Assembly: GCF_900182545.1 (NCBI RefSeq)
Contig: NZ_FXTJ01000004.1
Coordinates: forward strand, 186,001 to 250,000
Length of the DNA: 64,000 bases
Reading direction: 5' to 3'
Source of the DNA: Geodermatophilus aquaeductus
Lineage (GTDB): Bacteria; Actinomycetota; Actinomycetes; Mycobacteriales; Geodermatophilaceae
In this document: positions 7,166 to 51,028 of the stretch, piece after piece
How the letters are laid out: each line of letters begins with the position of its first letter
Numbering within the stretch: the stretch's first letter is position 1
Translations under genes and position numbers: made by a program
Notes under the pieces: generated by a model
What the model was told of the DNA's origin: nothing
The model's input: only the letters and a program-made list of their open reading frames with translations
The model's database searches: none

Positions 7166-7180
7166 CCGTTATCCCCAACT
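7166..7180 (-). repeat. polar 15-bp motif, copy 1 (29 kb left of dif)
   Basis: CCGTTATCCCCAACT on the plus strand, exact copy. It sits in the gap before helY, about 100 bases ahead of its -10 box, so it is unlikely to be a core promoter part. The flank GCGCCGAACG that follows is shared with copy 2. Confidence 0.8.
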
Positions 7181-7281
7181 CAGGCGCCGAACGACGCGAG
7201 GGAAGGCCCGGCGACGACGAGGGGAGCGGCTCGCGCGATCGGCGGCGTCCCGCCCGCGCTGAGGACATCCCGGCGAGCGCC

Positions 7282-7287
7282 TAACGT
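7282..7287 (+). promoter_or_regulatory. leaderless -10 box of helY
   Basis: TAACGT ends seven bases before the ATG at 7295. It supports that ATG rather than the GTG at 7286, which would place the -10 box inside the gene. Confidence 0.55.
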
Positions 7288-7294
7288 GGAGCGC

Positions 7295-10147
7295 ATGTCC
7301 AGCCCCGCCGAGCGGTACGCGGCTGCCCGGCGGCGCAGCGCGCACCCGACCCTGGCCGACTTCACGTCCGACCTCGGGTTCTCCCTCGACCCGTTCCAGG
7401 TGGAGGCCTGCGAGGCGCTCGACGAGGGCGCCGGGGTGCTGGTGTGCGCGCCCACCGGGGCCGGCAAGACCGTCGTCGGCGAGTTCGCGGTGCACAAGGC
7501 GCTGGCCGAGGGCCGCAAGGCGTTCTACACGACGCCGATCAAGGCGCTGTCCAACCAGAAGTACAACGACCTCGTCGACCGCTACGGCGCCGACCGGGTC
7601 GGCCTGCTGACCGGCGACAACGCCGTCAACGGCGACGCCCCGGTGGTGGTGATGACCACCGAGGTGCTGCGCAACATGCTCTACGCGGAGTCCCCGGCCA
7701 TCGACGGTCTCGGTTACGTGGTCATGGACGAGGTGCACTACCTCGCCGACCGATTCCGCGGCGCCGTGTGGGAGGAGGTGATCATCCACCTGCCGGCGTC
7801 GGTGACCCTGGTGTCGCTGTCGGCCACGGTGAGCAACGCCGAGGAGTTCGCCGACTGGCTGGTCACCGTGCGCGGGCACACGCGGGTCGTCGTCAGCGAG
7901 GTGCGGCCGATCCCGCTGTGGCAGCACATGCTCGTCGGCAACCGGGTGTTCGACCTGTTCAGCCTGCGCCCCGCGGCGCACGCCGCCGAGCAGGGGGAGA
8001 CGCCGCGGACGCTGTCCACCCGCGACCGCGGCGCCAGCGTCGTCGACCCCGAGCTGGTGCGGTTCGTGCGCGAGTACGAGCGCCGGCTGGACACCTGGGG
8101 CGGAGGCGGCGGCGGGTCGCGGCGTGACCGGGACCGCGACTGGCACAAGCCCCGCTACCGCCCGCCGGCCCGCCCGGAGGTGGTCGAGCGGCTCGACCGC
8201 GCCGGGTTGCTGCCGGCGATCACCTTCATCTTCAGCCGCAACGGCTGCGACGCCGCCGTCGCCCAGTGCCTGCAGTCGGGCCTGCGGCTGACCGACGAGT
8301 CCGAGCGCGCCGAGATCGCCCGGATCGTCGACGAGCGCACCGGCGGCCTGCCCGACGAGGACCTGCACGTCCTCGGCTTCTGGGAGTGGCGCGAGGGGCT
8401 GCTCGCCGGGATCGCCGCCCACCACGCCGGCCTGGTCCCGGCGTTCAAGGAGACCGTCGAGGAGTGCTTCGTCCGCGGCCTGGTCAAGGCCGTGTTCGCC
8501 ACCGAGACCCTCGCGCTGGGCATCAACATGCCGGCGCGCACCGTGGTGCTCGAGCGGCTGGTCAAGTGGAACGGCGAGGCGCACGTCGACGTCACGCCGG
8601 GGGAGTACACGCAGCTCACCGGGCGCGCCGGGCGCCGCGGCATCGACGTCGAGGGGCACGCCGTCGTCGTCTGGGCGCCGGGCATGGACCCCTCCGTCGT
8701 CGCCGGGCTGGCCAGCACCCGCACCTATCCGCTGCGCTCGTCGTTCCGGCCCAGCTACAACATGGCCGTCAACCTGGTCGGCTCCTTCGGCCGCGCCCGC
8801 GCCCGGGAGCTGCTGGCCTCCTCCTTCGCCCAGTTCCAGGCCGACCGCTCGGTGGTGGGCCTGGCCCGGCAGGCGGCCCGCTCCGAGCGCGACGCGGAGA
8901 AGTTCGCCGCCGAGATGAGCAGCGAGGGCGGCGACGTGCTGGCCTACGCCCGGCTGCGGCGGGAGATCGCCGACCGGGAGAAGGAGCTGTCCCGCGACTC
9001 GCAGGCCAAGCGCCGCATCGAGGCCGCCGACGCGCTGGCCGCGCTGCGCCCCGGCGACGTCATCCGGGTGCCCTCGGGCCGCCGGCAGGGCCTGGCCGTC
9101 GTCCTCGACCCCGGCGTCACCGACCTGTCCGACCCGCGGCCGCTGGTGCTCACCGAGGACAAGTGGGCCGGGCGGCTGGGCAGCGTCGACTTCCCGACGC
9201 CGGTCACCGCGCTGGCCCGGGTCCGGGTGCCGAAGAACTTCAACCACCGCAGCCCGCACGCCCGCCGCGACCTCGCCTCCACGCTGCGCTCGGCACGGCT
9301 GGAGAACGACCTCGGCGCGCGGCGGGTGAAGAACCGCTCCGCGGCCGCCGACGACCCCGTGCTGCACGACCTGCGCCGCGCGGTGCGTCACCACCCGGTG
9401 CACGCGCTGCCCGACCGCGAGGAGCGGGTGCGCTTCGCCGAGCGGTACCTGCGCGCGGTCGCCGACGCCGAGGCCACCCACCGGAGGATGGCCGAGCGGA
9501 CCGGTTCGCTGACCCGGCAGTTCGACCGCATCTGCGACGTCCTGGAGGAGCTGGGCTACCTGGTGCCCGAGGTGGTGCCGCTGGTCCCGGCCGACACCGA
9601 GGAGCCCACCCCCGTCGACGACATCCCGCGGGTGACCGAGGAGGGACGGCGCCTGGCGCGGATCTGGTCGGAGGCCGACCTCCTGGTCGCCGAGTGCTTG
9701 CGCGCCGGGACGTGGCGCGGGCTGGGCCCGGCGGAGCTGGCCGCGGCGGTGTCGACGCTGGTGTTCGAGGCCCGCCGGGAGATGCCCGGCCAGCCCGCGG
9801 TCCCGGCCGGGAAGGTGGCCGGCGCGATCGCCGAGATGCGTGGCATCCGGGCCCGGCTGCAGGACGTCGAGCTCGACCGCGGCCTGCCGGCCACCCGTGA
9901 CCTCGACCTCGGCTTCGCCTGGGCGGCCTACCGGTGGGCCGACGGGCAGAGCCTCGACCGGGTGCTCGCCGGCGCCGAGCAGGCCGGCACCGAGCTCTCC
10001 GGCGGCGACTTCGTCCGCTGGGCGCGGCAGCTGGTCGACCTGCTCGACCAGCTGGCCAAGGTGGCCGACGAGACGGTGGCCGGGGTGGCCCGCGCCGCGG
10101 TCGGCCGGGTCCGGCGCGGCGTGGTCGCGGTCGCGGTCAGCGGCTGA
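7295..10147 (+). CDS. helY: HelY, Ski2-like DEVH-box RNA helicase
   Basis: 950 residues, the usual length for actinobacterial HelY. Motif I is APTGAGKT (residues 52-59), motif II MDEVH (about 145), motif III SATVSN, and motif [12 protein letters not shown], followed by the long C-terminal Ski2/Mtr4-type helical region. The family unwinds structured RNA and probably assists RNA turnover; the exact role in actinobacteria is not settled. A Gly/Arg-rich linker ([18 protein letters not shown]) separates the two RecA-like domains. The leaderless TAACGT box selects ATG 7295. It continues the tat-adjacent block known from mycobacteria. Confidence 0.92.
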
Positions 10148-10234
10148 CCCGGCCGGGGGAACGGCTCCCGACGCGGAGGGCGACCACGGCGCGCACGGGC
10201 TGCCGGAGGCCTCCGGTGGTGCACAATCCCCCCG

Positions 10235-10259
10235 CTCCCGGGACGCGGTGTCCCGGGAG
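10235..10259. terminator. hairpin between helY and the next gene
   Basis: CTCCCGGGAC pairs perfectly with GTCCCGGGAG around a five-base loop. There is no T tract, as is usual in this GC range. It could end helY transcription or fold in the leader of the following gene, which starts 38 bases later. Confidence 0.5.
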
Positions 10260-10296
10260 GACCCGTCCGGGTCGAACGGAACGAGCAGGAGCGACG

Positions 10297-10935
10297 ATGA
10301 CCAACCCACCGCAGGGTGGCCAGCCGGGGCAGTACGGGCAGCCGGGCCAGTTCGGCCAGCAGCCCGGCCAGTACGGGCAGCCGGGGCAGTACGGCCAGCC
10401 GGGTGGTGGGCAGTACGGGCAGCCGGGCCAGTTCGGCCAGCAGCCCGGCGGGTACGGCCAGCCGGGCCAGCAGCCGGGCCAGTACGGCCAGCCCGGCTAC
10501 GGCCAGCAGCCGGGCCAGTTCGGGCAGCCGGGGCAGTACGGGCAGCAGCCCGGCCAGTACGGCCAGCCCGGGTACGGCCAGCAGCCGGGGCCCTACGGCC
10601 AGCCCTACGGCCAGCAGCCGCCCAAGAAGTCGCGCACGGGGCTGGTCATCGGCCTGGTGGCGCTGGCCGTCGTCGTGATCGCCGCGGCGATCATCCTGCC
10701 GATCGTGCTGGGCAAGGACGTCCTGGACCAGGCGCGGGCCGAGGACGACATCGCCACCCAGTTCGAGGAGACCTTCGGCGTGTCCGTCGACGTGACCTGC
10801 GACGACGAGATGGTCGTGGAGAACGGCGCCACCTACGAGTGCACCGGCACGACCGGCGACGGCGAGGACGTGACCCTGCAGGTCGCGATCACCGACGCCG
10901 ACGCGGCGGCCTACACCTGGGAGGTCGCCTCCTAG
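10297..10935 (+). CDS. membrane-anchored DUF4333 protein with Gln/Gly/Tyr repeats
   Basis: 212 residues in three parts. Residues about 5-107 are a low-complexity cytosolic region built from GQYGQPGQ and GQFGQQPGQ units, a composition like that of phase-separating or prion-like proteins. Then comes one membrane helix (residues about 114-136) and a C-terminal domain with two cysteines ([21 protein letters not shown]) typical of DUF4333, presumably outside the membrane. A good AGGAG site precedes the ATG. Function unknown. DUF4333 proteins often carry Pro/Gln-rich cytosolic tails in actinobacteria. Confidence 0.8.
10312..10620 (+). repeat. degenerate GQYGQPGQ-coding repeat
   Basis: Short DNA units resembling cagccgggccagtacggg repeat irregularly through the 5' third of the DUF4333 gene. 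They encode alternating Gln-Pro-Gly-Gln and Tyr/Phe-Gly blocks and are likely to vary in copy number between strains. Confidence 0.75.
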
Positions 10936-10968
10936 CGGGGCGTCCCCGAGGACGGGGCCGGCCGGCGC

Positions 10969-11895
10969 TCACCCCAGCGCGTCGGCCGGCCACCCGAGGG
11001 CCGCGCCCAGCCGGCCCAGCGACGACCGCAGCCCGTGCGCGTCGGCCAGCGCGGCCAGCGCGTCGGCGTCGGCCGGGCGGCGGGGCAGCGCCCCCTCGAC
11101 CGCCGGCATGTCGATGTCGCGCGCCACGGCGACGACCACGGGCGCGGCGTCGAGGTACTCCCCGCCGGCGTGCAGCCGCTTGAGCACCGCCGCGGTCAGC
11201 GGCGCCTTCGGCACCACGGTGCGGGCCGCGGCCGCGCGGATGCCGGCCAGGTCGCCGAACTCCGTGATCAGCGCCGCCGCCGTCTTCGCGCCGATGCCGG
11301 CGACGCCGGGCAGGCCGTCGCTGGGGTCGCCGCGCAGCACCGCGAAGTCGGCGTAGGACCGCCCGGGGATCCCGTACTTCGCCGCCACCGCCGCCTCGTC
11401 GACCACCTCGATGTCGGCGATGCCCCGGTTGGTGTAGAGCACCCGCACGCCGCGGGCGTCGTCGACGAGCTGGAAGAGGTCCCGGTCCCCGGTGACGACG
11501 TCGACCGGCCCGCGCGCCCGGGTGGCCAGCGTGCCGATGACGTCGTCGGCCTCGAAGCCCGGCGCCCCGACCCGCGTGATCCCGGCCGCGGCCAGCACGT
11601 CGACGAGCACCGGCACCTGCGGCCCCAGCTCGTCGGGCGTCTCCTCCCCGCCATCGGGGGAGAGCCGGTGCGCCTTGTACGACGGCAGCGCCTCGACGCG
11701 GAAGGCCGGGCGCCAGTCGTCGTCCCAGCAGGCCACCAGCCGGTCGGGGGAGTGGGCGGTGAGCAGCCGGGCGGTCATGTCGAGGAACCCGCGGACGGCG
11801 TTCACCGGCCGGCCGTCGGGCGAGGTCACGCTGGTCGGGACGCCGTAGAAGGCCCGGAAGTAGAGGCTCGCGGCGTCGAGCAGCATCGTCGTCAC
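10969..11895 (-). CDS. 5'-3' exonuclease (FEN/Pol I N-terminal nuclease-like)
   Basis: 308 residues, matching a stand-alone Pol I-type 5' nuclease such as M. tuberculosis Rv2090. Visible metal-binding acidic motifs include MLLDAASLYFRAF near the start, GFEADDVIGTLA and VVTGDRDLFQLV, followed by the helix-hairpin-helix SDGLPGVAGIGAKTAAALI that grips DNA. The enzyme should cleave 5' flaps or degrade DNA 5' to 3' during repair and Okazaki fragment processing. The GTG start at 11895 lies eight bases after TACCGT on the minus strand, a leaderless arrangement; the longer reading frame to 11970 is not needed. Convergent with the DUF4333 gene. Confidence 0.9.
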   Translation of the reverse strand: MTTMLLDAASLYFRAFYGVPTSVTSPDGRPVNAVRGFLDMTARLLTAHSPDRLVACWDDDWRPAFRVEALPSYKAHRLSPDGGEETPDELGPQVPVLVDVLAAAGITRVGAPGFEADDVIGTLATRARGPVDVVTGDRDLFQLVDDARGVRVLYTNRGIADIEVVDEAAVAAKYGIPGRSYADFAVLRGDPSDGLPGVAGIGAKTAAALITEFGDLAGIRAAAARTVVPKAPLTAAVLKRLHAGGEYLDAAPVVVAVARDIDMPAVEGALPRRPADADALAALADAHGLRSSLGRLGAALGWPADALG

Positions 11896-11963
11896 GGGCG
11901 GGGACGGTAACGGTCCGGGAAACCCCGGCGGGAGCGGTCGGTCCCCGGGGTTAGTGTCCCGGG

Positions 11964-13103
11964 GTGGCAAGCAGCACGGGGGCCCTCGTCAGCATCGACC
12001 GCGTGCACGCCGCGCGCAGCGTCGCCGCCGAGCTCGGCGTCGACGTCCTGGTCCTCACACCGGGTTCGGACCTGCGCTACCTGTGCGGCTACGACGCCCA
12101 CGCGATGGAGCGGCTGACCGCACTCGTGGTGCCCCGGGCCGGGGAGCCGCTGCTCGTCGTCCCGCGGCTCGAGGCGCCGATGGTCGACGCGAGCCCGGCC
12201 GGCTCGCTCGGGCTGGAGTTGCTCGCCTGGGACGAGACCGACGACGCCTTCGCCGTCCTGGCGCGGGAGGTGACCGCCCGGCTGGGCGGCGCGCCGACGC
12301 GGGTCGCGGTGGGGGCGCGCACCTGGGCCGAGCACGCGCTCGGCGTGCACCGGGCGCTGCCGGGGTCGGCGCTGGAGCTGGCCACCCCGGTGCTCGACCG
12401 GCTGCGGATGGTCAAGACGCCGGCCGAGGTGGAGGAGCTCGCCCTCGCCGGTGCCGCCATCGACCGGGTGCACGCCCGGATGGGGGAGTGGCTGCGCGTG
12501 GGCCGCACCGAGGCGGAGGTGGGCGCCGACATCGCCGCGGCCATCCTCGCCGAGGGGCACGTGGGCGTGGACTTCACCATCGTCGGGTCCGGCCCCAACG
12601 GCGCCAGCCCGCACCACGAGCTCTCCGGCCGGGTGGTGGAGGCCGGCGACCTCGTCGTCGTCGACATCGGCGGGGAGACGGCCACCGGCTACCGCTCCGA
12701 CTGCACCCGCACCTACGTCGTCGGCGGCGAGCCCGACGCCGAGGTGGCCGAGTGGTACGCGGTCCTGCAGGACGCGCAGGAGGCCGCCGTCGCCGCCGTC
12801 CGCCCCGGGGTGAGCGCCGAGGAGGTCGACGCCGTCGCCCGCGACCGGATCACCGCCGCCGGGTGGGGCGGGCACTTCATCCACCGCACCGGCCACGGCA
12901 TCGGCCTCGACACCCACGAGGCGCCCTACATCGTCGCGGGCAACACCCTGCCCCTGGAGCCGGGCATGGCCTTCTCCGTGGAGCCGGGCATCTACCTCGC
13001 CGGGCGCTGCGGCGCGCGCATCGAGGACATCGTGGTCTGCACCGACGACGGCGTCCGCACGCTGAACGAGGGTCCCCGTGAGCTCGTCGTCCTCCCCGGC
13101 TGA
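11964..13103 (+). CDS. M24 family Xaa-Pro dipeptidase/aminopeptidase (PepE-like)
   Basis: 379 residues. An N-terminal creatinase-like domain precedes the pita-bread catalytic domain. The five metal ligands of M24 enzymes can be placed: the Asp of VVVDIGG, the Asp of RSDCTRTYV, the His of RTGHGIGL, and the two Glu of SVEPGIY and RIEDIVV. It should release the N-terminal residue before proline from small peptides in the cytosol. Its GTG lies six bases after TAGTGT, so it is probably leaderless. Rv2089c (pepE) has the same neighbour, the exonuclease, in M. tuberculosis. The 3' end overlaps the Lrp gene by 26 bp. Confidence 0.9.
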   Translation: MASSTGALVSIDRVHAARSVAAELGVDVLVLTPGSDLRYLCGYDAHAMERLTALVVPRAGEPLLVVPRLEAPMVDASPAGSLGLELLAWDETDDAFAVLAREVTARLGGAPTRVAVGARTWAEHALGVHRALPGSALELATPVLDRLRMVKTPAEVEELALAGAAIDRVHARMGEWLRVGRTEAEVGADIAAAILAEGHVGVDFTIVGSGPNGASPHHELSGRVVEAGDLVVVDIGGETATGYRSDCTRTYVVGGEPDAEVAEWYAVLQDAQEAAVAAVRPGVSAEEVDAVARDRITAAGWGGHFIHRTGHGIGLDTHEAPYIVAGNTLPLEPGMAFSVEPGIYLAGRCGARIEDIVVCTDDGVRTLNEGPRELVVLPG

Positions 13104-13545
13104 GCACACCGCCGACGTCGACCGGGCGCTGCTGGCCGCCCTGGCGCGGGACGGGCGGGCCAGCTACACCGAGCTCGCCGAGCGGGTGGGCCTGTCGGTG
13201 TCGGCGGTGCACCAGCGGGTGCGCCGACTCGAGCAGCGCGGCCTGATCACCGGCTACCGGGCGACGATCGACGCCCGCCAGGTGGGCGCGGGGCTGACGG
13301 CGTTCGTGTCGATCACCCCGCTGGACCAGGCACAGGCCGACGACGCCCCCGCCAAGCTCACGCACCTCGACGCCATCGAGGCCTGCTACTCGGTGGCCGG
13401 GGTGGAGAGCTACCTGCTCAAGGTGCGGGTGGCCTCGCCGGAGGCGCTCGAGGCGCTGCTGCGCGAGATCCGCACCACCGCCAACGTGGCCACCCGCACC
13501 ACCGTCGTCCTCTCGACCTTCTACGAGGACCGTCCACCCGTGTGA
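13078..13545 (+). CDS. Lrp/AsnC family transcriptional regulator
   Basis: 155 residues: N-terminal winged helix-turn-helix (LLAALARDGRASYTELAERVGLSVSAV, given in part) and a C-terminal RAM/ACT-like ligand domain (YSVAGVESYLLKVRV). Family members bind amino acids and control amino-acid metabolism. The GTG start lies inside the 3' end of the M24 peptidase gene, so the two are co-translated. A peptidase coupled to an amino-acid sensor makes physiological sense, but the ligand is unknown. Confidence 0.88.
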   Translation: MSSSSSPAEHTADVDRALLAALARDGRASYTELAERVGLSVSAVHQRVRRLEQRGLITGYRATIDARQVGAGLTAFVSITPLDQAQADDAPAKLTHLDAIEACYSVAGVESYLLKVRVASPEALEALLREIRTTANVATRTTVVLSTFYEDRPPV

Positions 13546-13573
13546 GCCGCGCCCGGCCCGGCAGAGTGGTGCG

Positions 13574-14528: not shown

Positions 14529-14543
14529 CCGTTATCCCCAACT
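14529..14543 (-). repeat. polar 15-bp motif, copy 2 (21.7 kb left of dif)
   Basis: Exact CCGTTATCCCCAACT on the plus strand in the gap between the DMT gene and the radical SAM gene. It is followed after two bases by GCGCCGAACG, also found after copy 1. It lies 74 bases ahead of the SOS box. Confidence 0.8.
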
Positions 14544-14632: not shown

Positions 14633-14641
14633 ATCAGCAGC

Positions 14642-16839: not shown

Positions 16840-17694
16840 TCAGGCCGGCGGTGCGGCCGCGGCCCTGTTCGCCCGGGTCGCCCGCTCGGCGCGGACGGCG
16901 CCGCGGGCGGCCACCGGCTCGGCGCCGGCGGCGAGGGCCAGCCGGCGGTAGGAGTCGTAGGACAACGTCTCGTAGACGGCGGCCAGCGCCTCGGCCCGCG
17001 CGCGGCGTGCGCCCGCCGTCGTGGCCCGCAGGTACAGCGCCGTCCGCACCGCGTGCTTGGTGAACGTCACCTGCAGCGCCTGGCTGGACAGCCGCCCGCC
17101 CACGTGTGAGGTGTAGCCCGGACCGCGACGCAGCGCGGGCAGCACCCACGGGCTGTCGGCCAGGGCGGGGAAGCGGTTGCGCACCGCCTCCCAGGCGTGC
17201 CACGCGGTCAGCGCCCCGGGCACCGACCACTCGCCGTCGTCGGTGGTGACGACCAGGCGCCTGGCCGTGGCGTGCACCTGCTCGCGGCGCAGGTCCCGGA
17301 AGCTGCCCACGGGCGCCGGCCAGCGCAGCGCGATCGCGCACCAGACGACCGTGCGCAGGTGCTCGGGGTCCTCGCTGCGGACCTCGGTGAGCGGCCGCAG
17401 GTCCAGCGTCCGCGGGTCGGGCTCGGGCGTCGGGGGCGTGGGCAGGGGGACGCCGCCGTAGCGGGCGACCTTGCTGTAGAGGGTGACGGTGGCCGGCTTC
17501 CAGCCCCGGGCCGCGGCGACGTCGTCCATCCCGCCCTCGGCGAGCTCCTCGGGACCGAGGCCGAGCTCCAGGGCGGCGTCGACGAGCCGGCGCCACTGCA
17601 CGGCGTAGCCCTCGGGTGCCGCGAGCCTGGCCCATGCGCGCGCCGCGGGCAGTGCCGGCATCGCCGGCAGCGGTCCCTGCCACCCCTTCGCCAT
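16840..17694 (-). CDS. uncharacterised putative DNA-binding protein with a polar motif in its promoter
   Basis: 284 residues, family not recognised. The N-terminal third contains a helix-turn-helix-like stretch (DDVAAARGWKPATVTLYSKV, residues about 56-75). The rest weakly resembles a tyrosine recombinase catalytic domain in layout (IALRWPAPVGSFRDLRREQV, then GGRLSSQALQVTFTKHAV, then YETLSYDSYRRLALAAG), but a convincing Arg-His-Arg-Tyr set is not seen, so it is probably not an active recombinase. The C-terminus is Ala/Arg-rich. The ATG lies six bases after TAAGGT, a leaderless promoter, and a copy of the window-wide 15-bp motif sits one base upstream of that -10 box. A binding protein that represses its own gene would be placed like this. 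Confidence 0.6.
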   Translation of the reverse strand: MAKGWQGPLPAMPALPAARAWARLAAPEGYAVQWRRLVDAALELGLGPEELAEGGMDDVAAARGWKPATVTLYSKVARYGGVPLPTPPTPEPDPRTLDLRPLTEVRSEDPEHLRTVVWCAIALRWPAPVGSFRDLRREQVHATARRLVVTTDDGEWSVPGALTAWHAWEAVRNRFPALADSPWVLPALRRGPGYTSHVGGRLSSQALQVTFTKHAVRTALYLRATTAGARRARAEALAAVYETLSYDSYRRLALAAGAEPVAARGAVRAERATRANRAAAAPPA

Positions 17695-17700: not shown

Positions 17701-17706
17701 ACCTTA
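17701..17706 (-). promoter_or_regulatory. leaderless -10 box TAAGGT of the 284-residue gene
   Basis: On the minus strand TAAGGT is followed by ACCGTC and the ATG at 17694. The polar motif begins one base upstream, so a protein on the motif would cover the -14 to -28 region and block RNA polymerase. Confidence 0.6.
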
Positions 17707-17707: not shown

Positions 17708-17722
17708 CCGTTATCCCCAACT
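17708..17722 (-). repeat. polar 15-bp motif, copy 3 (18.5 kb left of dif), in a promoter
   Basis: Exact CCGTTATCCCCAACT on the plus strand. It overlaps the core promoter of the divergent-reading 16840-17694 gene and borders an unusually AT-rich stretch (17722-17760). Confidence 0.85.
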
Positions 17723-36195: not shown

Positions 36196-36223
36196 TCCGC
36201 CGATAATGCGCATTATGTCAACT
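36196..36223 (+). other. dif: chromosomal dif site (XerC/XerD recombination site)
   Basis: A 28-bp site with dif architecture: XerC arm TCCGCCGATAA, six-base centre TGCGCA, XerD arm TTATGTCAACT. The XerD arm matches E. coli TTATGTTAAAT at 9 of 11. Against the actinobacterial dif consensus as I recall it, 25 of 28 positions agree. The core ATAATGCGCATTAT is a perfect palindrome and stands out from the surrounding GC-rich DNA. It lies in a gene-free stretch, as dif sites do. It marks where chromosome dimers are resolved and where replication ends. Confidence 0.85.
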
Positions 36224-36320: not shown

Positions 36321-37652
36321 TCATGCAGAGCCGCGGAGCACGACGCGAGTGGGTCCGCCCGGCAGGTTCTGGTTGATGAGGAGTTCGGTCTCGGCGCTCC
36401 CCTGCGGGCCGGCTCTTTCGTAGGTCACCTCGAAGGAGCACTCCGCTGCCGGTGCGCTCGTCGCTGCCGGTGCAAGCGTCTGATTCGCACAACGGTCATC
36501 GAACGAGAAGCGCTCTTCGCCGGGATCGGCGAACTCGATGGCATCCACTCTCAGCGCCTCGAAGCCCGTGCTGCGAATGGTCACCGACCCGCAACTGCCG
36601 AGACCGGCGCAGACGACCGGGTTGGGAGTGACCACGATGCCAGGCCCTGCAGGGACCTCGCCGCGGAGCGTGACGGAAGTGGGTCCGCCCGGCAGGTTCT
36701 GGTTGATGAGGAGTTCGGTCTCGGCGCTCCCCTGCGGGCCGGCTCTTTCGTAGGTCACCTCGAAGGAGCACTCCGCTGCCGGTGCGCTCGTCGCTGCCGG
36801 TGCAAGCGTCTGATTCGCACAACGGTCATCGAACGAGAAGCGCTCTTCGCCGGGATCGGCGAACTCGATGGCATCCACTCTCAGCGCCTCGAAGCCCGTG
36901 CTGCGAATGGTCACCGACCCGCAACTGCCGAGACCGGCGCAGACGACCGGGTTGGGAGTGACCACGATGCCAGGCCCTGCAGGGACCTCGCCGCGGAGCG
37001 TGACGGAAGTGGGTCCGCCCGGCAGGTTCTGGTTGATGAGGAGTTCGGCCACTCCGGCCCCCTCTGGGTCGGCGGCTGTGAGCATCACCTCGAAGGAGCA
37101 CTCCGCTGCCGGTACCAACGTCTGATCCGCACAACGGTCATCGAACGAGAAACGCTCTTCGCCGGGATCGGCGAACTCGATGGCATCCACTCTCAGCGCC
37201 TCAGACCCCGTACTGCGAATGATCACCAACCCGCAACTGCCGACACCGGCGCAGACGACCGGATCGGGAGTGACCTCGATGCCCGGTGCCCCAGCATCCG
37301 GGGCCGACACGCCGGGCGGTATCGGAAACGTCGCTGCACTGCTTTCCGCGAAGTTCGCCGTGGTCACGGTCGTGTAAGTCACGAGCACTGCCACGACAAC
37401 GACGACCACCACGATGAGAGGGCGCGATCTGCCCTTGGGCAGCACCTGCGGGAGCATCGCCGGAACGAGGGCACCGAGAATGGCGGCGAGCAGGTTGAGT
37501 TCCGGACTGCCGTAGACGGACTTCCCCACCCAGGTGCCGAGTAGCGAGCCTGCCACCGAGAGCAGTAGACCCACCACGACCTGCTCACGAGCCTCCATCT
37601 GTGGTCCCGCCCGAGGTGGACCCGTCCCTCGGTTCGGAGAGGGCTCGGCCAT
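36321..37652 (-). CDS. membrane protein with three tandem Ig-like (ASH/choice-of-anchor-D-like) domains
   Basis: 443 residues. After a charged N-terminus come two hydrophobic segments (residues about 24-66 and 78-92), then three 110-residue repeats: GIVVTPNPVVCAGLGSCGSV, FADPGEERFSFDDRC and LLINQNLPGGPTSVTL mark each. Each repeat has three cysteines and resembles the abnormal-spindle/Hydin-like Ig fold used in surface proteins. Repeats 2 and 3 are almost identical in DNA. ATG 37652 follows GGAG. Base composition is clearly less GC-rich than the neighbours, suggesting acquisition. Predicted to be surface exposed; function unknown. Confidence 0.75.
   Translation of the reverse strand: MAEPSPNRGTGPPRAGPQMEAREQVVVGLLLSVAGSLLGTWVGKSVYGSPELNLLAAILGALVPAMLPQVLPKGRSRPLIVVVVVVVAVLVTYTTVTTANFAESSAATFPIPPGVSAPDAGAPGIEVTPDPVVCAGVGSCGLVIIRSTGSEALRVDAIEFADPGEERFSFDDRCADQTLVPAAECSFEVMLTAADPEGAGVAELLINQNLPGGPTSVTLRGEVPAGPGIVVTPNPVVCAGLGSCGSVTIRSTGFEALRVDAIEFADPGEERFSFDDRCANQTLAPAATSAPAAECSFEVTYERAGPQGSAETELLINQNLPGGPTSVTLRGEVPAGPGIVVTPNPVVCAGLGSCGSVTIRSTGFEALRVDAIEFADPGEERFSFDDRCANQTLAPAATSAPAAECSFEVTYERAGPQGSAETELLINQNLPGGPTRVVLRGSA
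36349..37290 (-). repeat. 330-bp tandem repeat, three units
   Basis: Units begin at 36349, 36679 and 37009 (exact period 330 bp). The first two in coordinate order are near-identical over the whole unit; the third has diverged and lacks about 18 bp. Such DNA identity implies recent duplication or gene conversion and predicts length variation between strains. Confidence 0.9.
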
Positions 37653-38625: not shown

Positions 38626-38640
38626 CGTTAGGGATAACGG
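38626..38640 (+). repeat. polar 15-bp motif, copy 4 (2.4 kb right of dif), two mismatches
   Basis: CGTTAGGGATAACGG agrees with AGTTGGGGATAACGG at 13 of 15. It lies between two convergent genes, so it cannot serve a promoter there. Orientation is that of the right-hand group. Confidence 0.7.
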
Positions 38641-41418: not shown

Positions 41419-41433
41419 AGTTGGGGATAACGG
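41419..41433 (+). repeat. polar 15-bp motif, copy 5 (5.2 kb right of dif)
   Basis: Exact AGTTGGGGATAACGG on the plus strand, in the gap after the ABC operon and 48 bases ahead of the -35 box of the MFS gene. Preceded by GGTT as in copy 3. Confidence 0.8.
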
Positions 41434-43655: not shown

Positions 43656-44258
43656 TCAGCGGGCGCGCCGCTCCCGCCACGGCCGGCCGTGCAGCCACCA
43701 CGAGAGCCGGCGGGTGATCCACGGCAGCAGCAGGTACGTCATCAGCGGGGTGAGCGTCAGGGTCACGACCAGCACCCGCAGGGCCACGGGCACGTCGGCG
43801 AGCGCCGCGCCCAGGGTCACCGTGGCCAGCAGGTTGAGCGGGTAGAACACCAGCCAGATCGTCGTCGCCTGCTTCCACCGCGGCGGAGCCGGCGGGGCCG
43901 CGGGGGTGACCACCTCGGTGCTCACCGGGGAGTCGAACCAGCCCTCGATGCCGGTGCGCCGCTCGGTGCGGGTGACCTCGGCCAGTCCCTCGGCCGAGCG
44001 CAGCCACCAGGCCCGCTCCGTCGACGCCTCCCACGCCTCGAGCGCCTCCTGGTCGGCGAAGCGGCACAGCATGTGCCACTCGTCGGAGCCGTCGTGCGAG
44101 CGCACCCAGCCGGCGCCGAGGAAGCCCGGGAAGGACTCGGCCATCGTCAGACCGGCCCGGATCCAGGCGGTCATCTCGCGCGTGTGCGCGGGATCGGCGC
44201 GGCGGGTGAAGGAGACGGTGACCGGCAGGTGCCGGGCGGCGACCGGGAGCGACGTCAC
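43656..44258 (-). CDS. ABM-domain protein with two C-terminal membrane helices
   Basis: 200 residues. Residues about 10-105 look like an antibiotic biosynthesis monooxygenase-type ferredoxin fold (VTVSFTRRADPAHTREM; EWHMLCRFADQEALEAWEAS), then two hydrophobic segments (about 130-150, 155-178) and a basic end. This combined form is common in actinobacteria; activity is unproven. The start GTG 44258 fits the domain start; the longer frame upstream is not supported. Confidence 0.75.
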   Translation of the reverse strand: MTSLPVAARHLPVTVSFTRRADPAHTREMTAWIRAGLTMAESFPGFLGAGWVRSHDGSDEWHMLCRFADQEALEAWEASTERAWWLRSAEGLAEVTRTERRTGIEGWFDSPVSTEVVTPAAPPAPPRWKQATTIWLVFYPLNLLATVTLGAALADVPVALRVLVVTLTLTPLMTYLLLPWITRRLSWWLHGRPWRERRAR

Positions 44259-44370
44259 CGTTCCAGGATGGGCGAGCCGCGGCCCCCGGCGCAGGTCGGA
44301 GGAGCGTGATCTCCCCCGCTCTCGCTGCTCCTCCCCCTCGCTGACGTGACCACCGTCTCCTGTGTCCAGG

Positions 44371-44385
44371 AGTTGGGGATAACGG
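44371..44385 (+). repeat. polar 15-bp motif, copy 6 (8.2 kb right of dif)
   Basis: Exact AGTTGGGGATAACGG on the plus strand in the gap between two divergent genes, 62 bases ahead of the M50 gene. Confidence 0.8.
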
Positions 44386-44447
44386 ACGACACGGCAGGCG
44401 GACGCGCCTCCGGGGAGCTCCCAGGCCGGTGCGGTTGACTCGCCGCG

Positions 44448-45152
44448 ATGGACGCCGTCGACCGCCTCTGGACCCGCGTGAGCGCCGCGGCCCCGCTTCC
44501 CCTCGAGGTCCTGGCCGCGGCCGCCGCCGTGGCGCTGCTCGTCGTCGCCACCCCCGCGCTGTGGCGGCCGGCGCGGACGGTGGTGACCATCGCCCACGAG
44601 GGCGCCCACGGGCTCGCCGCGCTGGCCACCGGCCGGAGCCTGGCCGGGATCCGGCTGCACTCGGACACCTCCGGGCTCACCGTCTCGCGGGGCCGCCCCA
44701 GCGGGATCGGCATGGTGCTCACCTGCGCGGCGGGCTACGTGGGCCCGGCCCTGTTCGGCCTGGGCGCGGCGGCGCTGCTCGCGGCCGGGCACGCCGTCGG
44801 GGTGCTGTGGGCGCTGCTGGCCCTGCTCGCGCTCCTGCTGGTGCAGATCCGCAACCTCTACGGGCTGTGGGCGGTGCTGGTCACCGCCGCGGGCCTGGCC
44901 GCCGTCACCGCGTGGCTGCCGCCGGCCGGCCAGGCCGCCGTCGCCGCGGCCGTGACCTGGTTCCTGCTGCTGGCCGCGCCGCGCACCGTGCTGGAGCTGC
45001 AGGCGGCGCGCCGGCGGCGGGCGGCCCCGGACTCCGACGCCGACCAGCTGGCCCGCCTCACCCGGGTGCCCGCGCTGCTGTGGGTGGGCGTGTTCCTGCT
45101 GGTCGACGTCGCCGCGCTGGCGCTCGCGGTCAGGTGGCTGCTGGTGCCCTGA
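44448..45152 (+). CDS. M50 family membrane metallopeptidase
   Basis: 234 residues. The zinc motif HEGAH (residues 50-54) lies in a predicted membrane region, followed by about five more hydrophobic segments; a second zinc ligand is probably the Asp/Asn of IRNLYGLW. This is the M50B-like group widespread in actinobacteria, intramembrane proteases of unknown substrate. ATG start without a strong ribosome site. Confidence 0.85.
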   Translation: MDAVDRLWTRVSAAAPLPLEVLAAAAAVALLVVATPALWRPARTVVTIAHEGAHGLAALATGRSLAGIRLHSDTSGLTVSRGRPSGIGMVLTCAAGYVGPALFGLGAAALLAAGHAVGVLWALLALLALLLVQIRNLYGLWAVLVTAAGLAAVTAWLPPAGQAAVAAAVTWFLLLAAPRTVLELQAARRRRAAPDSDADQLARLTRVPALLWVGVFLLVDVAALALAVRWLLVP

Positions 45153-45179
45153 GGACGACCCGGAGCGTCACCCTGAGCG

Positions 45180-47555
45180 TCACTCCGCCCCGTAGCGGCT
45201 GCGCCGGCGCGGCTCGGCCCCGTGCGGCTGGGTGACCTTGCCGGTGTCGGGCGCCGGGGGGATGTCGACCACCAGGTCGTCGTGGTCGACGGTCAGCCGG
45301 CGGCCGTGGTGGTGCACGTCGAGCGCCTCGCCGTCGAGCAGCCGGTAGGTGGCCTGCTCCTTGGTGACCGTCACCTGCAGGGCGCGGCCCTGGTAGGCTA
45401 GCCGGAAGCGCAGCCGGCTGATGCGCTCGGGCAGCCGCGGCGCGAACAGCAGGTGCCCGTCGTGGTCGCGCATGCCGCCGAACCCCGCGACGGCGACCGT
45501 CCAGCCGCCGGCCATCGAGGCGATGTGCAGGCCGTGGCCGGAGTTGCCGTGCAGGTTCTGCAGGTCGGTGAGCGTGGCCTCGGCCCAGTAGTCGTAGGCC
45601 AGCTCCAGGTGCCCGGTCTCGGCGGCCACCACCGCCTGCTGGGCCGCCGACAGCGACGAGTCGCGCACCGTGCGGGCCTCGTAGTAGGCGAAGTCGGCGA
45701 CCTTCTCCTCGAAGGTGAACGCGTCCCCGCGCAGGTGCAGCGCCATGACCAGGTCGGCCTGCTTGACCACCTGCTTGCGGTAGATGTCGAAGTACGGGAA
45801 GTGCAGCAGCAGCGGGTAGCACTCCCGCGGCGTGTTCGCGAAGTCCCACTCCTCGTGGTGGGTGAACGCGTCGGACTGCATGTGCACGCCCAGCCGCGTG
45901 TCGTAGGGCACGGCCATGAGGCGGGCGGCCCGCTGCCAGGTCGCGGCCTCGTCCTCGGTGACCTGCAGCCGGCCGGCGACGTCGGGCTGCCGCTCGACCG
46001 CGGCGGCCGCCTCGCGCAGGTTCCGCTGCGCCATCAGGTTCGTGTAGACGTTGTTGTCCACCACGGCCGTGTACTCGTCGGGCCCGGTGACGCCGTCGAT
46101 GCGGAAGCCGTGCTCCTCGTCGAAGTGGCCGAGCGAGGCCCACAGCCGGGCGGTCTCGACGAGCAGCTCCGTGCCGAAGTCGCGGTCGAACTCCTCGTCC
46201 TCGGTGGCGTGCAGGTAGCGGACGACGGCGTCGGCGATGTCGGCGTTGATGTGGAAGGCCGCCGTCCCCGCCGGCCAGTACCCCGACGTCTCCTCGCCCC
46301 GGATGGTCCGCCACGGGAAGGCCGCGCCGTGCAGGCCGAGCTCGCGCGCCCGGGAGCGGGCGAGGTCCAGCGTCGAGTGCCGCCACCGCAGCGCGTCGCG
46401 GGCGGCCTCCGGCGCGATGTAGGTGAGCACGGGCAGCACGTAGGTCTCGGTGTCCCAGAAGGTGTGCCCGTCGTAGCCGGGGCCGGTGAGCCCCTTGGCC
46501 GGGATCGGCTGCCGCTCGGCGCGCAGGCCGGCCTGCAGCACGTGGAAGACGCCGACCCGCACGGCCTGCTGCAGCTCGTCGTCGCCCTCGATCTCGACGT
46601 CGGCCCGCGCCCAGAACTCGTCGAGGACGGACCGCTGCTCCTCGGCCAGCCGGGCGAAGCCGGCCAGCTTGGCCGTGGCCAGCGCCCCCTCCACCTGGTC
46701 GCGCAGCGCCGCCGCCGACCGCCGCGACGACCAGCCGTAGGCCAGGTACTTGACCAGCTTCACGCCCGAGCCCCTGCCGGGCAGCCGCGCGGCCAGCGTG
46801 TAGCGGGCGAGGTCCTCGCCGGCCTCCATGTCCTCGGTGACCTGGTCGGGGACGTCGATGACGTGCTCCATCCCGGCGGCCATGCGCAGGTGGCTGCGCT
46901 TGGTCCGGTGCACCAGGACGGCGCGGTGGCCGCGGCCGACGGCGAGCTCGCTGACCAGCGGCCGGCGCAGCGCCGCCGCGGCGCGGGGATCGTCGCCCTC
47001 GCTGCCGCTGTCGACCGGCTCGTTGGCCAGCAGGTCCGACTGCAGCGCGATGTAGAGGTCACCGCGGTCGTCGGTGCACTCGACCTGGTACTCGATGGCG
47101 GCGATCGACCGCCGGCGCAGCGACACCAGCCGGGTGCTGGTCACCCGCACGGTGCGGCCGTTGGGCGAGCGCCACTCGGTGACCCGGCGCAGCACGCCCC
47201 GGCGCAGGTCGAGGGTGCGGCGGTGCTCGATCACCTCGCCGTAGTCGAGGTCCAGCGGGGTGTCGCCGACCAGCAGCCGGATCAGCTTGCCGTCGGTGAC
47301 GTTGACGACCGTCTGCCCCTGCTCGGGGAAGCCGTAGCCGGCCTCGGCGTAGGGCAGCGGCCGCTCCTCGAAGAAGCCGTTGAGGTAGGTGCCGGGGACG
47401 ACGATCGGCTCGCCCTCCTCGAACGACCCGCGCATGCCCACGTGGCCGTTGGCGAGGGCGAACACCGACTCGTGCACCCCGAGCGAGTGGTGGTCCAGGC
47501 CGATCTCGGTCAGCGCCCACGGCTCGACCGGGAAGGTGGCGCGCCCCTCCGTCAC
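45180..47555 (-). CDS. glycoside hydrolase family 65 (disaccharide phosphorylase-like)
   Basis: 791 residues, typical of bacterial GH65 enzymes (maltose, trehalose or kojibiose phosphorylase). Motifs include LGVHESVFALANGHVGMRG at the N-terminus, PGYDGHTFWDTETYVLPVL, the catalytic acid near residue 494 in TGPDEYTAVVDNN, and KQADLVMALHLRGDAF. The enzyme should cleave a disaccharide with phosphate and release beta-glucose-1-phosphate. Its GTG overlaps the stop of a beta-phosphoglucomutase-like gene, whose product would convert that sugar phosphate to glucose-6-phosphate. The exact disaccharide cannot be told. Confidence 0.92.
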   Translation of the reverse strand: MTEGRATFPVEPWALTEIGLDHHSLGVHESVFALANGHVGMRGSFEEGEPIVVPGTYLNGFFEERPLPYAEAGYGFPEQGQTVVNVTDGKLIRLLVGDTPLDLDYGEVIEHRRTLDLRRGVLRRVTEWRSPNGRTVRVTSTRLVSLRRRSIAAIEYQVECTDDRGDLYIALQSDLLANEPVDSGSEGDDPRAAAALRRPLVSELAVGRGHRAVLVHRTKRSHLRMAAGMEHVIDVPDQVTEDMEAGEDLARYTLAARLPGRGSGVKLVKYLAYGWSSRRSAAALRDQVEGALATAKLAGFARLAEEQRSVLDEFWARADVEIEGDDELQQAVRVGVFHVLQAGLRAERQPIPAKGLTGPGYDGHTFWDTETYVLPVLTYIAPEAARDALRWRHSTLDLARSRARELGLHGAAFPWRTIRGEETSGYWPAGTAAFHINADIADAVVRYLHATEDEEFDRDFGTELLVETARLWASLGHFDEEHGFRIDGVTGPDEYTAVVDNNVYTNLMAQRNLREAAAAVERQPDVAGRLQVTEDEAATWQRAARLMAVPYDTRLGVHMQSDAFTHHEEWDFANTPRECYPLLLHFPYFDIYRKQVVKQADLVMALHLRGDAFTFEEKVADFAYYEARTVRDSSLSAAQQAVVAAETGHLELAYDYWAEATLTDLQNLHGNSGHGLHIASMAGGWTVAVAGFGGMRDHDGHLLFAPRLPERISRLRFRLAYQGRALQVTVTKEQATYRLLDGEALDVHHHGRRLTVDHDDLVVDIPPAPDTGKVTQPHGAEPRRRSRYGAE

Positions 47556-48283
47556 CGACCCGCCTCCAGCAGCTGGTCGAGGTCGGTGACGACGACGTCG
47601 GCCCCGTTCTCCTTGAGCGCGTCGGCCTGCCCCACCCGGTCCACGCCGACGACGAACCCGAAGTCCCCCGCCCGGCCGGCCGCGACGCCGGCGAGGGCGT
47701 CCTCGAACACCGCCGCGGCCGAGGGCTCCACGCCCAGCGCGCGGGCGCCGGCGAGGAAGGTGTCGGGGGCGGGCTTGCCGCGCAGGCCCTCGCGGGCGGT
47801 CACCACGCCGTCGACGCGGGCGTCGATGAGGTCGGCGAAGCCGCCGGCGGTGATGACCTGCTCGCCGTTGGCCGAGGCGGTGACCACCGCGGTGCCCAGC
47901 CCGGCCTCCTTGGCCGCGCGCAGGTAGCTCATCGACCCGGGGTAGACCTCGACGCCGTTCTCCTCGAGCTCGGTGAGCAGCAGCTCGTTCTTGCGGCGGC
48001 CGACGCCGTGCACCGTCTGCGCGCCCGGCGGGTCGTCGGGCGTGCCCTCGGGCAGCCTGATGCCGCGGCTGGCGAGGAAGTCGCGGACGCCGTCGGCGCG
48101 CGGCTTGCCGTCGACGAAGCGGTTGTAGTCGAGCTGGGTGAACTCCGGCGCCTGCGGGTCCCGGGCGCGGAGGAACTCGTCGAAGGTCCGTTTCCACGCC
48201 GCCATGTGCACGGTGGCGGTGCGGGTGAGCACGCCGTCCATGTCGAAGAGGCAGACGCGGATGCCGTCGGGGAGTCCGAGCAC
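47552..48283 (-). CDS. HAD hydrolase, beta-phosphoglucomutase-like
   Basis: 243 residues. The nucleophile motif is FDMDGVLT (Asp14, Asp16), motif II VVTASANGE, motif III REGLRGKPAPDTFL and motif IV VFEDALAGVAAG. Asp+2 and the cap domain fit beta-phosphoglucomutase. It precedes and overlaps the GH65 gene, the standard pairing for disaccharide phosphorolysis. GTG start eight bases after TAGCGT, hence leaderless. Confidence 0.9.
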   Translation of the reverse strand: MLGLPDGIRVCLFDMDGVLTRTATVHMAAWKRTFDEFLRARDPQAPEFTQLDYNRFVDGKPRADGVRDFLASRGIRLPEGTPDDPPGAQTVHGVGRRKNELLLTELEENGVEVYPGSMSYLRAAKEAGLGTAVVTASANGEQVITAGGFADLIDARVDGVVTAREGLRGKPAPDTFLAGARALGVEPSAAAVFEDALAGVAAGRAGDFGFVVGVDRVGQADALKENGADVVVTDLDQLLEAGR

Positions 48284-48443
48284 GATCCCCCACGCTACGG
48301 CGCGCGGCGCGCGGCCACCTCCCGAGAGCCGGAGACCCCCGCCCGGGGCTCCTCCCCGCCGCCGGGGCGCGCGGCGCAGGCCGGCTGCCTAGGGTCGGCC
48401 CGGGCGGCAGCGGCCGCCCCGCCGATCCGAGGAGAGGACCGCC

Positions 48444-48989
48444 ATGGCCGACCGGCCTGTCCCGCCGAGCCCGTACGACTTCCTGCCGCCCGTCCCGTCG
48501 TTCACGGTGACCAGCACCGACGTCCGCGACGGCGAGGTGCTGCCGATGCCGCACGTCAGCGGTGTCATGGGCGCCGGCGGCGACGACCGCTCTCCCCAGC
48601 TGTCCTGGTCGGGCTTCCCCGAGGGCACGAGGGGCTTCGCCGTCACCGTGTTCGACCCCGACGCCCCCACGGTGTCCGGGTTCTGGCACTGGGTGGTCAC
48701 CGGCATCCCCGGCGACGTCATCGAGCTGCCGTCGGGCGCCGGGTCGCAGGACGGCGCCGCCCTGCCCGCCGGCGCGCGGCAGCTGCGCAACGACGCCGGC
48801 TTCGCCGGTTACGTCGGGGCCGCTCCGCCGGCCGGGCACGGCCCGCACCGGTACTTCACGGTGGTGCACGCCCTCGACGTCGAGGACATGGGCGTGCCCG
48901 CCGACGCCAGCCCCGCCTTCCACGGCTTCAACCTCTTCGGCCACACGCTGGCCCGGGCCGTCCTCGTGCCGGTGTACGTCCAGGACTGA
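48444..48989 (+). CDS. YbhB/YbcL family (PEBP-like) protein
   Basis: 181 residues. [27 protein letters not shown] and [14 protein letters not shown] are hallmark phosphatidylethanolamine-binding-protein strands, and [17 protein letters not shown] the third block. No signal peptide, so cytosolic. The bacterial family has no agreed function. ATG with GAGGAGAGGA upstream. Confidence 0.93.
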
Positions 48990-49094
48990 ACGGAGCCGCT
49001 CCGTCCTCCCCGCGGCGGGAGGCGGGGCCGGCACGGGGTACCCGGGGACCATGACGCCCCGGGTGCCCCGCCGCCCCGGTGCCCGACGCCGGGC

Positions 49095-49889
49095 TCAGCC
49101 CGCCGGGCGGGCGGCGACCCCGGTCGAGCCCAGCCAGGCGAAGCCGACCCGCTCGTAGACCCGTGCGACGTCGTCGTCCCCGGCGGTGAGGAAGACCAGG
49201 TCGGCGGTCTCGCGGGCCTGGGCGACCAGCGCCGAGGCCAGCGCGGCGCCGACCCCCCGGCCGCGCCGGCGCGGCGAGCTGGCCACCCCGACGACCTCGC
49301 TGATCTCGGTGCCGTCGACGTCGACCGGCTGGTGCGCGCCGACGGCGACCGGCGTGCCGTCCTCGACGGCGACCATCACCACCGTGCGGCCGCTGGCGAC
49401 CCGCTCGCGCAGGACGGCGGTGCGCGCCTCGTCGGGCGGGCCGGGGTCGTCGGTGTCGTCCTCCGCGTGCGGGGCGAACCCGCTCTCCAGCAGGTGCTGG
49501 TAGTGCGGCAGCGCCGGGTCGTCGCCGCCGACGAGGTACAGCCGCACGCCGTGCGGGAGCAGCAGCTCGACCGGCTCGTCGGCGACCAGCAGCGGGAACT
49601 CGGTGACCACCAGCCCGGCCGCGCGGGCGGCGGCGGCGAGGGTCGGCGTCCGGTCGACCACCCACTCCACGGCGGCCGGCAGCTCCGCCTCCTCCTGCAG
49701 CGCCACCGCGGCCCGGACGTCGTCGGCGGGGACCGTGCGGGTGCCGGGCAGCGGCCGGGCGGGGAACGGCCAGGCGGGCGGCCCGATGGGGACGGCCAGG
49801 GTGCCGGCGGTGACCGGCGGCGCGTCGGGCAGCGACGCGGCGACGGCGTACTGCTCGACGCGGTCGAGCAGCCCGGGGCGGGTCGGCAC
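49095..49889 (-). CDS. GNAT family N-acetyltransferase
   Basis: 264 residues. Residues 1-150 are a divergent N-terminal half; the C-terminal half has the acetyl-CoA motif VVGVASSPRRRGRGVGAALASALV and VYERVGFAWLGS. The GTG start is six bases after TAGGGT (leaderless). Target unknown. Convergent with the PEBP gene. Confidence 0.85.
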   Translation of the reverse strand: MPTRPGLLDRVEQYAVAASLPDAPPVTAGTLAVPIGPPAWPFPARPLPGTRTVPADDVRAAVALQEEAELPAAVEWVVDRTPTLAAAARAAGLVVTEFPLLVADEPVELLLPHGVRLYLVGGDDPALPHYQHLLESGFAPHAEDDTDDPGPPDEARTAVLRERVASGRTVVMVAVEDGTPVAVGAHQPVDVDGTEISEVVGVASSPRRRGRGVGAALASALVAQARETADLVFLTAGDDDVARVYERVGFAWLGSTGVAARPAG

Positions 49890-50003
49890 ACCGGCACCCT
49901 AGACGCGCCCGGGCGCGGGAGCGCCGGGGAAGCCCGGTCCGCGGCGGCGCCCCACCCCCGCGGGTGACCCCGGCGACGTGGCCGTGCGGGCCCGGGCGGC
50001 ACG

Positions 50004-50966
50004 ATGGACACCGTGACGGCCGGGACCCGCCCCTCCATCTCGCCCTACGCGGCCTTCGACCGCGACGCGTGGCGGGCGCTGGCCGCCGTGCGCACGCTGC
50101 CGCTGGACGAGGCCGACCTGCGCGCGCTGCGCAGCCTCGGCGACCGCATCGACCTCGACGAGGTCGCCACCGTCTACCTGCCCCTGGCCGAGCTGCTCAA
50201 CCTGCACGTCACCGCCAGCCAGCGGCTGTGGGCCGCGCAGAACCGCTTCCTCGGCGACACCACCGCCAAGGTGCCCTACGTCATCGCCGTCGCCGGCAGC
50301 GTCGCCGTCGGCAAGAGCACCACCGCCCGTCTGCTGCAGACGCTGCTGGCCGCCGCCCCCGGCTCCCCGCGGGTCGACCTGGTCACCACCGACGGGTTCC
50401 TGTGGCCCAACGCCGTCCTCGAGGCCCGCGGGCTCATGGCCCGCAAGGGCTTCCCCGAGAGCTACGACCGGCGGGCGCTCATCCGCTTCCTCGCCGACGT
50501 GAAGTCCGGCCGCGGCGAGGTGCGCGCGCCGGTGTACTCCCACCAGTCCTACGACGTGCTCGGCGGGCAGCGGCAGGTGGTGGACCGCCCCGACGTCCTC
50601 GTCGTCGAGGGGCTCAACGTGCTGCAGGCCGGCCGCCGCGACGACGGCCGCGTGCCCGAGGTCTTCCTCTCGGACTTCTTCGACTTCTCCGTCTACGTCG
50701 ACGCCGCCGAGAGCGACATCCAGCAGTGGTACGTCGAGCGCTTCCTCGCGCTGCGCCGCACGGCCTTCGCCGACACCTCGGCCTACTTCCACCGCTACGC
50801 CGACCTCAGCGACGACGACGCCCGGGCCACCGCGCTCTCGATCTGGGCCGCGGTCAACGGGCCCAACCTGCGGCAGAACATCGCCCCGACCCGCTCGCGC
50901 GCCCGCCTGGTGCTGCAGAAGTCGGCCGACCACTCGGTGCGCCGGGTGCTGCTGCGCAAGCTCTGA
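50004..50966 (+). CDS. coaA: pantothenate kinase, type I
   Basis: 320 residues. The P-loop GSVAVGKST (98-106), the [12 protein letters not shown] block, [20 protein letters not shown] and [11 protein letters not shown] match bacterial CoaA; it phosphorylates pantothenate, the first and rate-limiting step of CoA synthesis, and is normally inhibited by CoA. ATG 50004 or GTG 50013 could be the start; neither has a clear ribosome site. Confidence 0.95.
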
Positions 50967-51013
50967 CCCCTCCCCTCACCGTGTCTTCCCGTCCGCGCCG
51001 GCATCGGCAGCTA

Positions 51014-51028
51014 AGTTGGGGATAACGG
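51014..51028 (+). repeat. polar 15-bp motif, copy 7 (14.8 kb right of dif)
   Basis: Exact AGTTGGGGATAACGG on the plus strand, 37 bases upstream of the CehA-like gene and just ahead of where its -35 region would lie. Confidence 0.8.

Follow-up and report, generated by a model that had tools for sequence, protein, structure and literature searches.

A polar 15-bp motif around dif and a linked protein gene in Geodermatophilaceae: a candidate replication fork trap

Motif, dif, and partner gene in the terminus region

The DNA analyzed here (the window) is a stretch of 64,000 nucleotides from the actinomycete Geodermatophilus aquaeductus (assembly GCF_900182545.1, contig NZ_FXTJ01000004.1; C4:186001-250000). 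It contains dif, the chromosome dimer resolution site (36199..36223, plus strand; C4:222199), which has a single match in the genome, together with seven copies of a polar 15-bp motif, CCGTTATCCCCAACT, and a minus-strand gene (16840..17694) for a 284-amino-acid protein (P0001). We propose this protein as the binding partner of the motif; its predicted fold is tyrosine recombinase-like, apparently without catalytic residues. The ter-like sites lie on the plus strand at 7166..7180, 14529..14543, and 17708..17722, all exact, and on the minus strand at 38626..38640, 41419..41433, 44371..44385, and 51014..51028. The last three of these are exact as well, with 51014 the outermost within the window, and the site at 38626 has two mismatches (CCGTTATCCCTAACG) and lies between convergent genes (glyoxalase on the plus strand, TetR on the minus strand). 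All seven sites are outside gene calls, and their polarity flips around dif.

In the whole 5.43-Mb genome (28 contigs; G000), the exact word occurs nine times, always within C4:73357-264268, a span of 191 kb around dif. Five exact copies are on the plus strand left of dif and four on the minus strand right of it, with dif inside the single orientation flip; those beyond the window are at C4:73357 (plus), C4:172035 (plus), and C4:264254 (minus), and the diverged site at 38626 is the tenth copy of this genome. A preliminary description of this DNA had given the positions, strands, and mismatch counts of the seven window copies, and a re-search found all of them correct, as were its statements that every copy is intergenic, that one lies between convergent genes, and that a single flip encloses dif at about 36.2 kb, with which the exact copies elsewhere in the genome agree. 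It had also called the chance of six exact copies negligible. Dinucleotide shuffles gave a mean of 0.31 matches at ≤3 mismatches, with 0 of 100 shuffles reaching 10. The reversed control pattern gave 0 matches in the whole genome.

Three further window matches at 3 mismatches (810, 28562, and 48587) are without the CCGTTAT core and appear to be background; the first two face dif and the third does not. On the other contigs there are two matches with one or two mismatches, C8:124705 and C6:76092. The former (L032:1205) differs by one mismatch and is coding, inside a LigD-like reading frame (...DIVDRYPELSRLP...), and the latter lacks the CCGTTAT core. The same LigD-type word as at C8:124705, CCGTTATCCCGAACT, one mismatch from the motif, was seen about once per genome in many genomes of genus g1 (genera are numbered g1 to g10), hundreds of kilobases from the terminus sites wherever one contig carries both; its coding status refers to the G. 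aquaeductus copy.

The site at 17708..17722, the innermost one left of dif in the window, precedes the partner-gene ATG by 13 bp and is proposed to be autoregulatory. Between this site and the start codon, a putative -10-like hexamer, TAAGGT (17701..17706, minus strand), would belong to a leaderless promoter, as judged from the spacer consensus in 78 relatives. The arrangement is shared by all 78 scored loci of the 79 named loci found (L138, with no start codon in frame, was left unscored): a motif copy on the opposite strand lies 12 to 16 bp upstream of the orthologue start, in 65 cases at exactly 12. Among the best 30 of 93 genomes, that of G. aquaeductus included, the site is 12 to 15 bp upstream of the gene. 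The spacer hexamer TA-R-N-N-T fits the -10 box of a leaderless promoter (54/78 by a loose pattern), and the site thus probably overlaps the promoter of the partner gene. In relatives, a second conserved upstream element, roughly cGGCAGGTGNCCAC, was noted by eye at about -60 to -46 from the gene start (e.g., in L072 and L081).

Conservation, clustering, and polarity in the family

At ≤1 mismatch, the motif was found in 26/26 genomes of the genus, and the exact word CCGTTATCCCCAACW was found in 91 of 112 genomes of the family Geodermatophilaceae, 106 of which have a recognizable dif. On contigs that carry dif, exact CCGTTATCCCCAACW sites faced dif in 116/116 cases among the matches listed for 35 genomes of g1 and g2 (G. 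aquaeductus included); the exact-word count used 131 of 150 listed matches, the other 19 being on contigs without dif. At ≤1 mismatch, the corresponding figure was 138/139 among the matches listed for 19 g1 genomes, where 7 of the 138 facing sites are the LigD-type word and 11 of 150 listed matches are on other contigs. At ≤2 mismatches, in G. aquaeductus and 11 relatives, 80/82 sites faced dif, both misses being in g3, and 78/78 did so in the ten that belong to g1, g2, and g9. This two-mismatch set comprises 82 of 109 matches, 81 with the CCGTTAT core plus G007:3492319 with CCGTTAC, without which the count outside g3 is 77/77; 3 of the 82 are the LigD-type word. Left out were 21 matches without the core, one on another contig, and five in G107, which has no dif match; 18 of the 21 coreless matches were checked for direction, and 8 of these face dif.

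In the same 12 genomes, there are 2 to 11 copies per genome, and 77/82 sites lie within 200 kb of dif, which in the 11 relatives is located at 0.46 to 0.61 of the chromosome from dnaA. The preliminary description had named clustering near dif with polarity as a sign of a fork trap or terminus organizer, and random orientation throughout the genome or lack of conservation as grounds for rejection; the sites are conserved, clustered, and polar. Its estimate that such polarity would arise by chance about once in 64 was too modest, because the polarity recurs in relatives.

A position weight matrix trained on the sites of 11 genomes, scanned over 18 segments with no requirement for the CCGTTAT core, gave >20 bits for sites and <12 bits for background, with nothing between. 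The information in the motif is confined to about 17 asymmetric positions; these sites were picked by their CCGTTAT core, so the invariance of the core in the consensus and context sets is by construction. In 1.03 Mb of terminus DNA from 14 genomes (16% noncoding), 74/74 sites were outside gene calls, which were made with our own script and misplaced the partner-gene start in several genomes. The sites lie between convergent (25), divergent (25), and tandem (24) genes, with the tandem cases split 13/11 in orientation. Site orientation ignores gene direction, and this is not a gene-regulatory pattern. Across orthologous intervals of six genomes of the genus, a site was present in the same orientation or absent and never inverted, with many comparisons unresolved.

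The partner protein was found in 93 of the 112 family genomes, once in each (as two pieces in G042 and as a fragment in G094). Protein and motif occur together in 91 genomes, the protein without the exact word in 2, the motif without the protein in 0, and neither in 19 (Fisher's exact test, 1.5e-19, with kinship ignored); the two genomes with the protein and no exact word carry variant gene-proximal sites. Both are missing in genera g5 to g8 and in one g9 genome that is 72% complete. Many of the negative g5 to g7 genomes are incomplete, and 8 of 9 g8 genomes are 99% complete; one g8 genome, G078, has dif and dnaA and no motif site. In all 80 genomes where gene and dif share a contig, the gene is found on one and the same side of dif, at a distance of 7.7 to 23.5 kb, and reads away from it; the other 13 of the 93 have the two on different contigs or no dif match. 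The gene appears to be split or frame-broken in G042 (C2:58827-59664) and L138, possibly through sequencing error.

Named relatives have proteins of 278 to 290 amino acids, the closest named orthologue being that of Geodermatophilus amargosae (95%). For 77 of the 79 named loci, the titles name Geodermatophilaceae or Geodermatophilus, Blastococcus, Modestobacter, Trujillonella, or Goekera, genera which we take to be members of this family; the remaining two are titled "Frankiales bacterium" and "Bacillus sp." (the latter unverified). Samples of the order and the phylum yielded no clear orthologue outside the family: among 397 genomes of the order, 67 family members were positive, along with one marginal partial match (E = 8.7e-4), and among 396 genomes of the phylum, the G. 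aquaeductus genome alone was positive.

The genes beside the window sites have unrelated functions (YegS-like lipid kinase, DEAD/DSHCT helicase, NIPA-like, radical-SAM, glyoxalase, TetR, ABC-2, MFS, ABM, M50B, PRK-like, and one without a Pfam match). The innermost sites are asymmetric about dif in G003, G007, G008, G032, G034, and G047, at about 13 to 15 kb on the gene side and 1.3 to 2.7 kb on the other. About 100 bp from dif in the window, three direct repeats of about 300 nt (36330-37271; the others 99% and 63% identical to the first) lie inside a minus-strand open reading frame (36321-37652; DUF1573 below the cutoff).

A candidate fork trap and its alternatives

We consider it fairly likely, from the sequence patterns described above, that the motif is a polar replication terminator (ter) site and that the 284-amino-acid protein is its terminator protein. 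In the proposed mechanism, the protein would bind the asymmetric 15-bp site such that a replication fork reaching the 5' (CCG) side passes and one reaching the 3' (AACT) side is stopped. The two opposed groups of sites would then admit both forks to the terminus and block their exit, so that forks fuse near dif. If the sites block at all, the blocking face should be the inward one, because forks could not otherwise enter the terminus. The gene-proximal copy lies over the probable promoter, and the protein may repress its own gene, as is the case for tus and rtp, since a bound protein would cover that promoter. The partner gene with its promoter-proximal motif copy, which was absent from the preliminary description, is the strongest argument for a system similar to that of Tus or RTP.

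The predicted structure of the protein resembles tyrosine recombinases (Xer/Cre), and models of moderate confidence suggest a tyrosine recombinase-like fold in which catalysis has been lost; confidence is low over the C-terminal third of the models, for which no fold is claimed. Active tyrosine recombinases carry an R..K..HxxR..Y catalytic set, which the protein appears to lack. At the box-II His and Arg positions, 79/79 sequences have Gln (register set by eye), the Arg I position is Pro or Thr (weak alignment), and in an alternative box-II register, H214-x-x-R217, the Arg is not conserved; a tyrosine nucleophile is possible. Searches at E ≤ 1 matched 0 Pfam families (three orthologues) and 0 NCBIfam families (two orthologues), and a PHROGs search gave no match for the protein. 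A PDB sequence search returned two weak matches (E > 1), and a viral fold library returned weak matches, some of them to integrases. The motif core TTAT..CAAC(T) resembles the XerD arm of dif (TTATGTCAACT) by eye, which may point to descent of the motif from a dif half-site.

Several observations weigh against this interpretation. The fold models have pLDDT values of 72.6 to 73.6 and pTM values of 0.38 to 0.49, and no Foldseek match was obtained for them at E ≤ 0.001. Profile comparison with the XerC and XerD proteins of the family was not significant (probability of 0.3% and 0.05%), so the argument for kinship with Xer is the predicted fold. The relatives share descent, and the counts are therefore not independent events. 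The earlier statement that every site points at dif stands for the window and fails in g3, as it does at every gene with another, convergent site upstream. Such a copy, pointing opposite to the first, was present at 147 to 177 bp upstream of the partner gene in 24/78 named loci, and where the pair exists (g3, g10, and G013), the flip is at the gene, as much as about 20 kb away from dif. Only 9 of 15 exact sites face dif among the matches listed for 10 g3 genomes, and the lone site of 139 facing away at ≤1 mismatch, G013:209176 (g1), is itself such a second, convergent copy. In G049 and G057 (g3), 200 kb holds just two sites, which form a convergent pair spaced by 164 bp upstream of the gene; dif lies outside the pair, at a distance of 19.4 to 19.9 kb. 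GC skew did not locate the terminus in g3, and the gene-strand switch there falls between the pair and dif and so cannot decide between the two. In G107 (g10), where the dif pattern used has no match, five sites show one flip, and a sixth, weaker copy is the convergent partner at the gene. A convergent pair breaks the rule that all sites point at dif, yet it would still form a closed trap.

The alternative that survives best, although we regard it as rather unlikely, is that the protein binds these sites as a terminus-domain organizer or segregation factor, organizing the terminus or modulating FtsK or XerCD at dif with no stop of the fork. Clustering of the sites around dif and linkage of the gene to dif in 80/80 testable genomes would fit such a role, as would the Xer/Cre-like fold and the likeness of the core to the XerD arm. 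It leaves the polarity without obvious use, however, as the sites of the organizer MatP (matS) are palindromic; 2 to 11 sites are few for a macrodomain, and G049 and G057 keep a single pair with dif outside it.

We give little credence to a local transcription regulator with operators near its own gene by chance. Overlap of the site with the probable promoter of the gene agrees with this reading, and a dead tyrosine recombinase can repress via repeated elements, as described in part of PMC10516654 for MrpR of SPβ. The 25 of 74 sites between convergent genes, the indifference of site orientation to gene direction, and the unrelated functions of the window neighbors all speak against it, and polarity would be left unexplained. 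Promoter elements were also considered and put low.

It is very improbable that the sites are DnaA boxes, remnants of mobile-element ends, or recombination targets. Near dnaA, three genomes have a TTGTCCCCA word that is one base off the core TTATCCCCA, but neither TTATCCCCA nor CCGTTATCC occurs within 8 kb around dnaA in these three, and G078 has dnaA and no sites. The likeness of the protein to recombinases would suit recombination targets, but the catalytic residues appear to be missing, and no site was seen inverted across the orthologous intervals of six genomes, among which many comparisons gave no clear answer. Least credible are FtsK-orienting sequences (KOPS), which share the polarity toward dif but are frequent and spread over both replichores with rising bias, whereas the motif has 2 to 11 copies per genome, mostly near dif, and is tied to a family-specific protein that, like the motif, is absent in g8, where 8/9 genomes have dif. 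Thus, among the three roles first suggested for the motif, a fork trap fits the clustering and polarity best, a terminus organizer keeps some standing, and an FtsK-orienting role is unsupported.

If the fork-trap reading is true, a further protein fold is able to produce polar arrest, the single 164-bp convergent pair would restrict the fusion of forks to one gap between genes, and the family offers trap-bearing and trap-free genera to compare.

Comparison with known systems

Only two bacterial fork-trap systems, Tus-ter and RTP-ter, are well known to us, and the system described here is probably a third that evolved independently, with a protein and site unrelated to either. No fork trap in Actinobacteria was found in the open-licence literature, judged mostly by titles; a query naming Geodermatophilaceae found nothing in open-licence full text, where the 12-base core occurs in seven papers, all with titles on unrelated subjects. 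We see an even chance that this is a third trap and seemingly the first in Actinomycetota, that it uses as terminator a domesticated tyrosine recombinase that is catalytically dead (possibly Xer derived, with ter from a dif half-site), and that traps within this one family range from ten sites to a single 164-bp pair. The purpose of fork traps is debated because mutants show little phenotype, according to a passage of PMC13220808.

Among systems of other kinds, MatP-matS differs in that matS is palindromic, nonpolar, and spread over a large terminus domain, whereas the sites here are asymmetric and polar. XerC/XerD-dif differs in that profile comparison gave no sequence homology to the partner protein, which has Gln at the box-II His and Arg positions. 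MrpR (YopR), the master repressor of prophage SPβ, is a phage repressor, and we know of no link between it and the terminus, dif, or polarity.

Pfam and NCBIfam hold models of both Tus and RTP, and neither database gave the partner protein a family of either kind at E ≤ 1; Tus was likewise absent among the fold matches listed, which is weak evidence by itself. RTP-ter of B. subtilis shares opposed sites and autoregulation, the latter probable here. Its terI and terII sites, about 0.1 kb apart in opposite orientation as given in part of PMC13220808, resemble the 164-bp convergent pair of g3. The B. subtilis sites differ: each is an imperfect inverted repeat of 32 bp to which two RTP dimers bind (same part of PMC13220808), whereas the information here lies in about 17 asymmetric positions of a ~15-bp site, with no two inverted half-sites, and the protein has 278 to 290 amino acids.

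Tus-ter (Enterobacterales and relatives) likewise differs from the present system, in which the protein has no Pfam match and another predicted fold, the site has another sequence, and the phylum is another. Shared features are short asymmetric sites, their arrangement in two opposed groups around dif, and a promoter-located site at the gene for the binding protein; here that site is 12 to 16 bp upstream in 78/78 loci and within a probable promoter. The parts of PMC10331603 and PMC13220808 that we consulted describe autoregulation of tus and rtp through a ter site within each promoter and place dif between the innermost ter sites in Tus species. In the "type I" traps of Edwardsiella and Dickeya, the promoter site is also the innermost on its side (PMC10331603, in part), as it is in the window. 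If the fork-trap reading is correct, the same anatomy, namely, opposed sites around dif and one at the promoter of the protein itself, would have been invented a third time, which would make this system a strong natural replicate of the two known ones.

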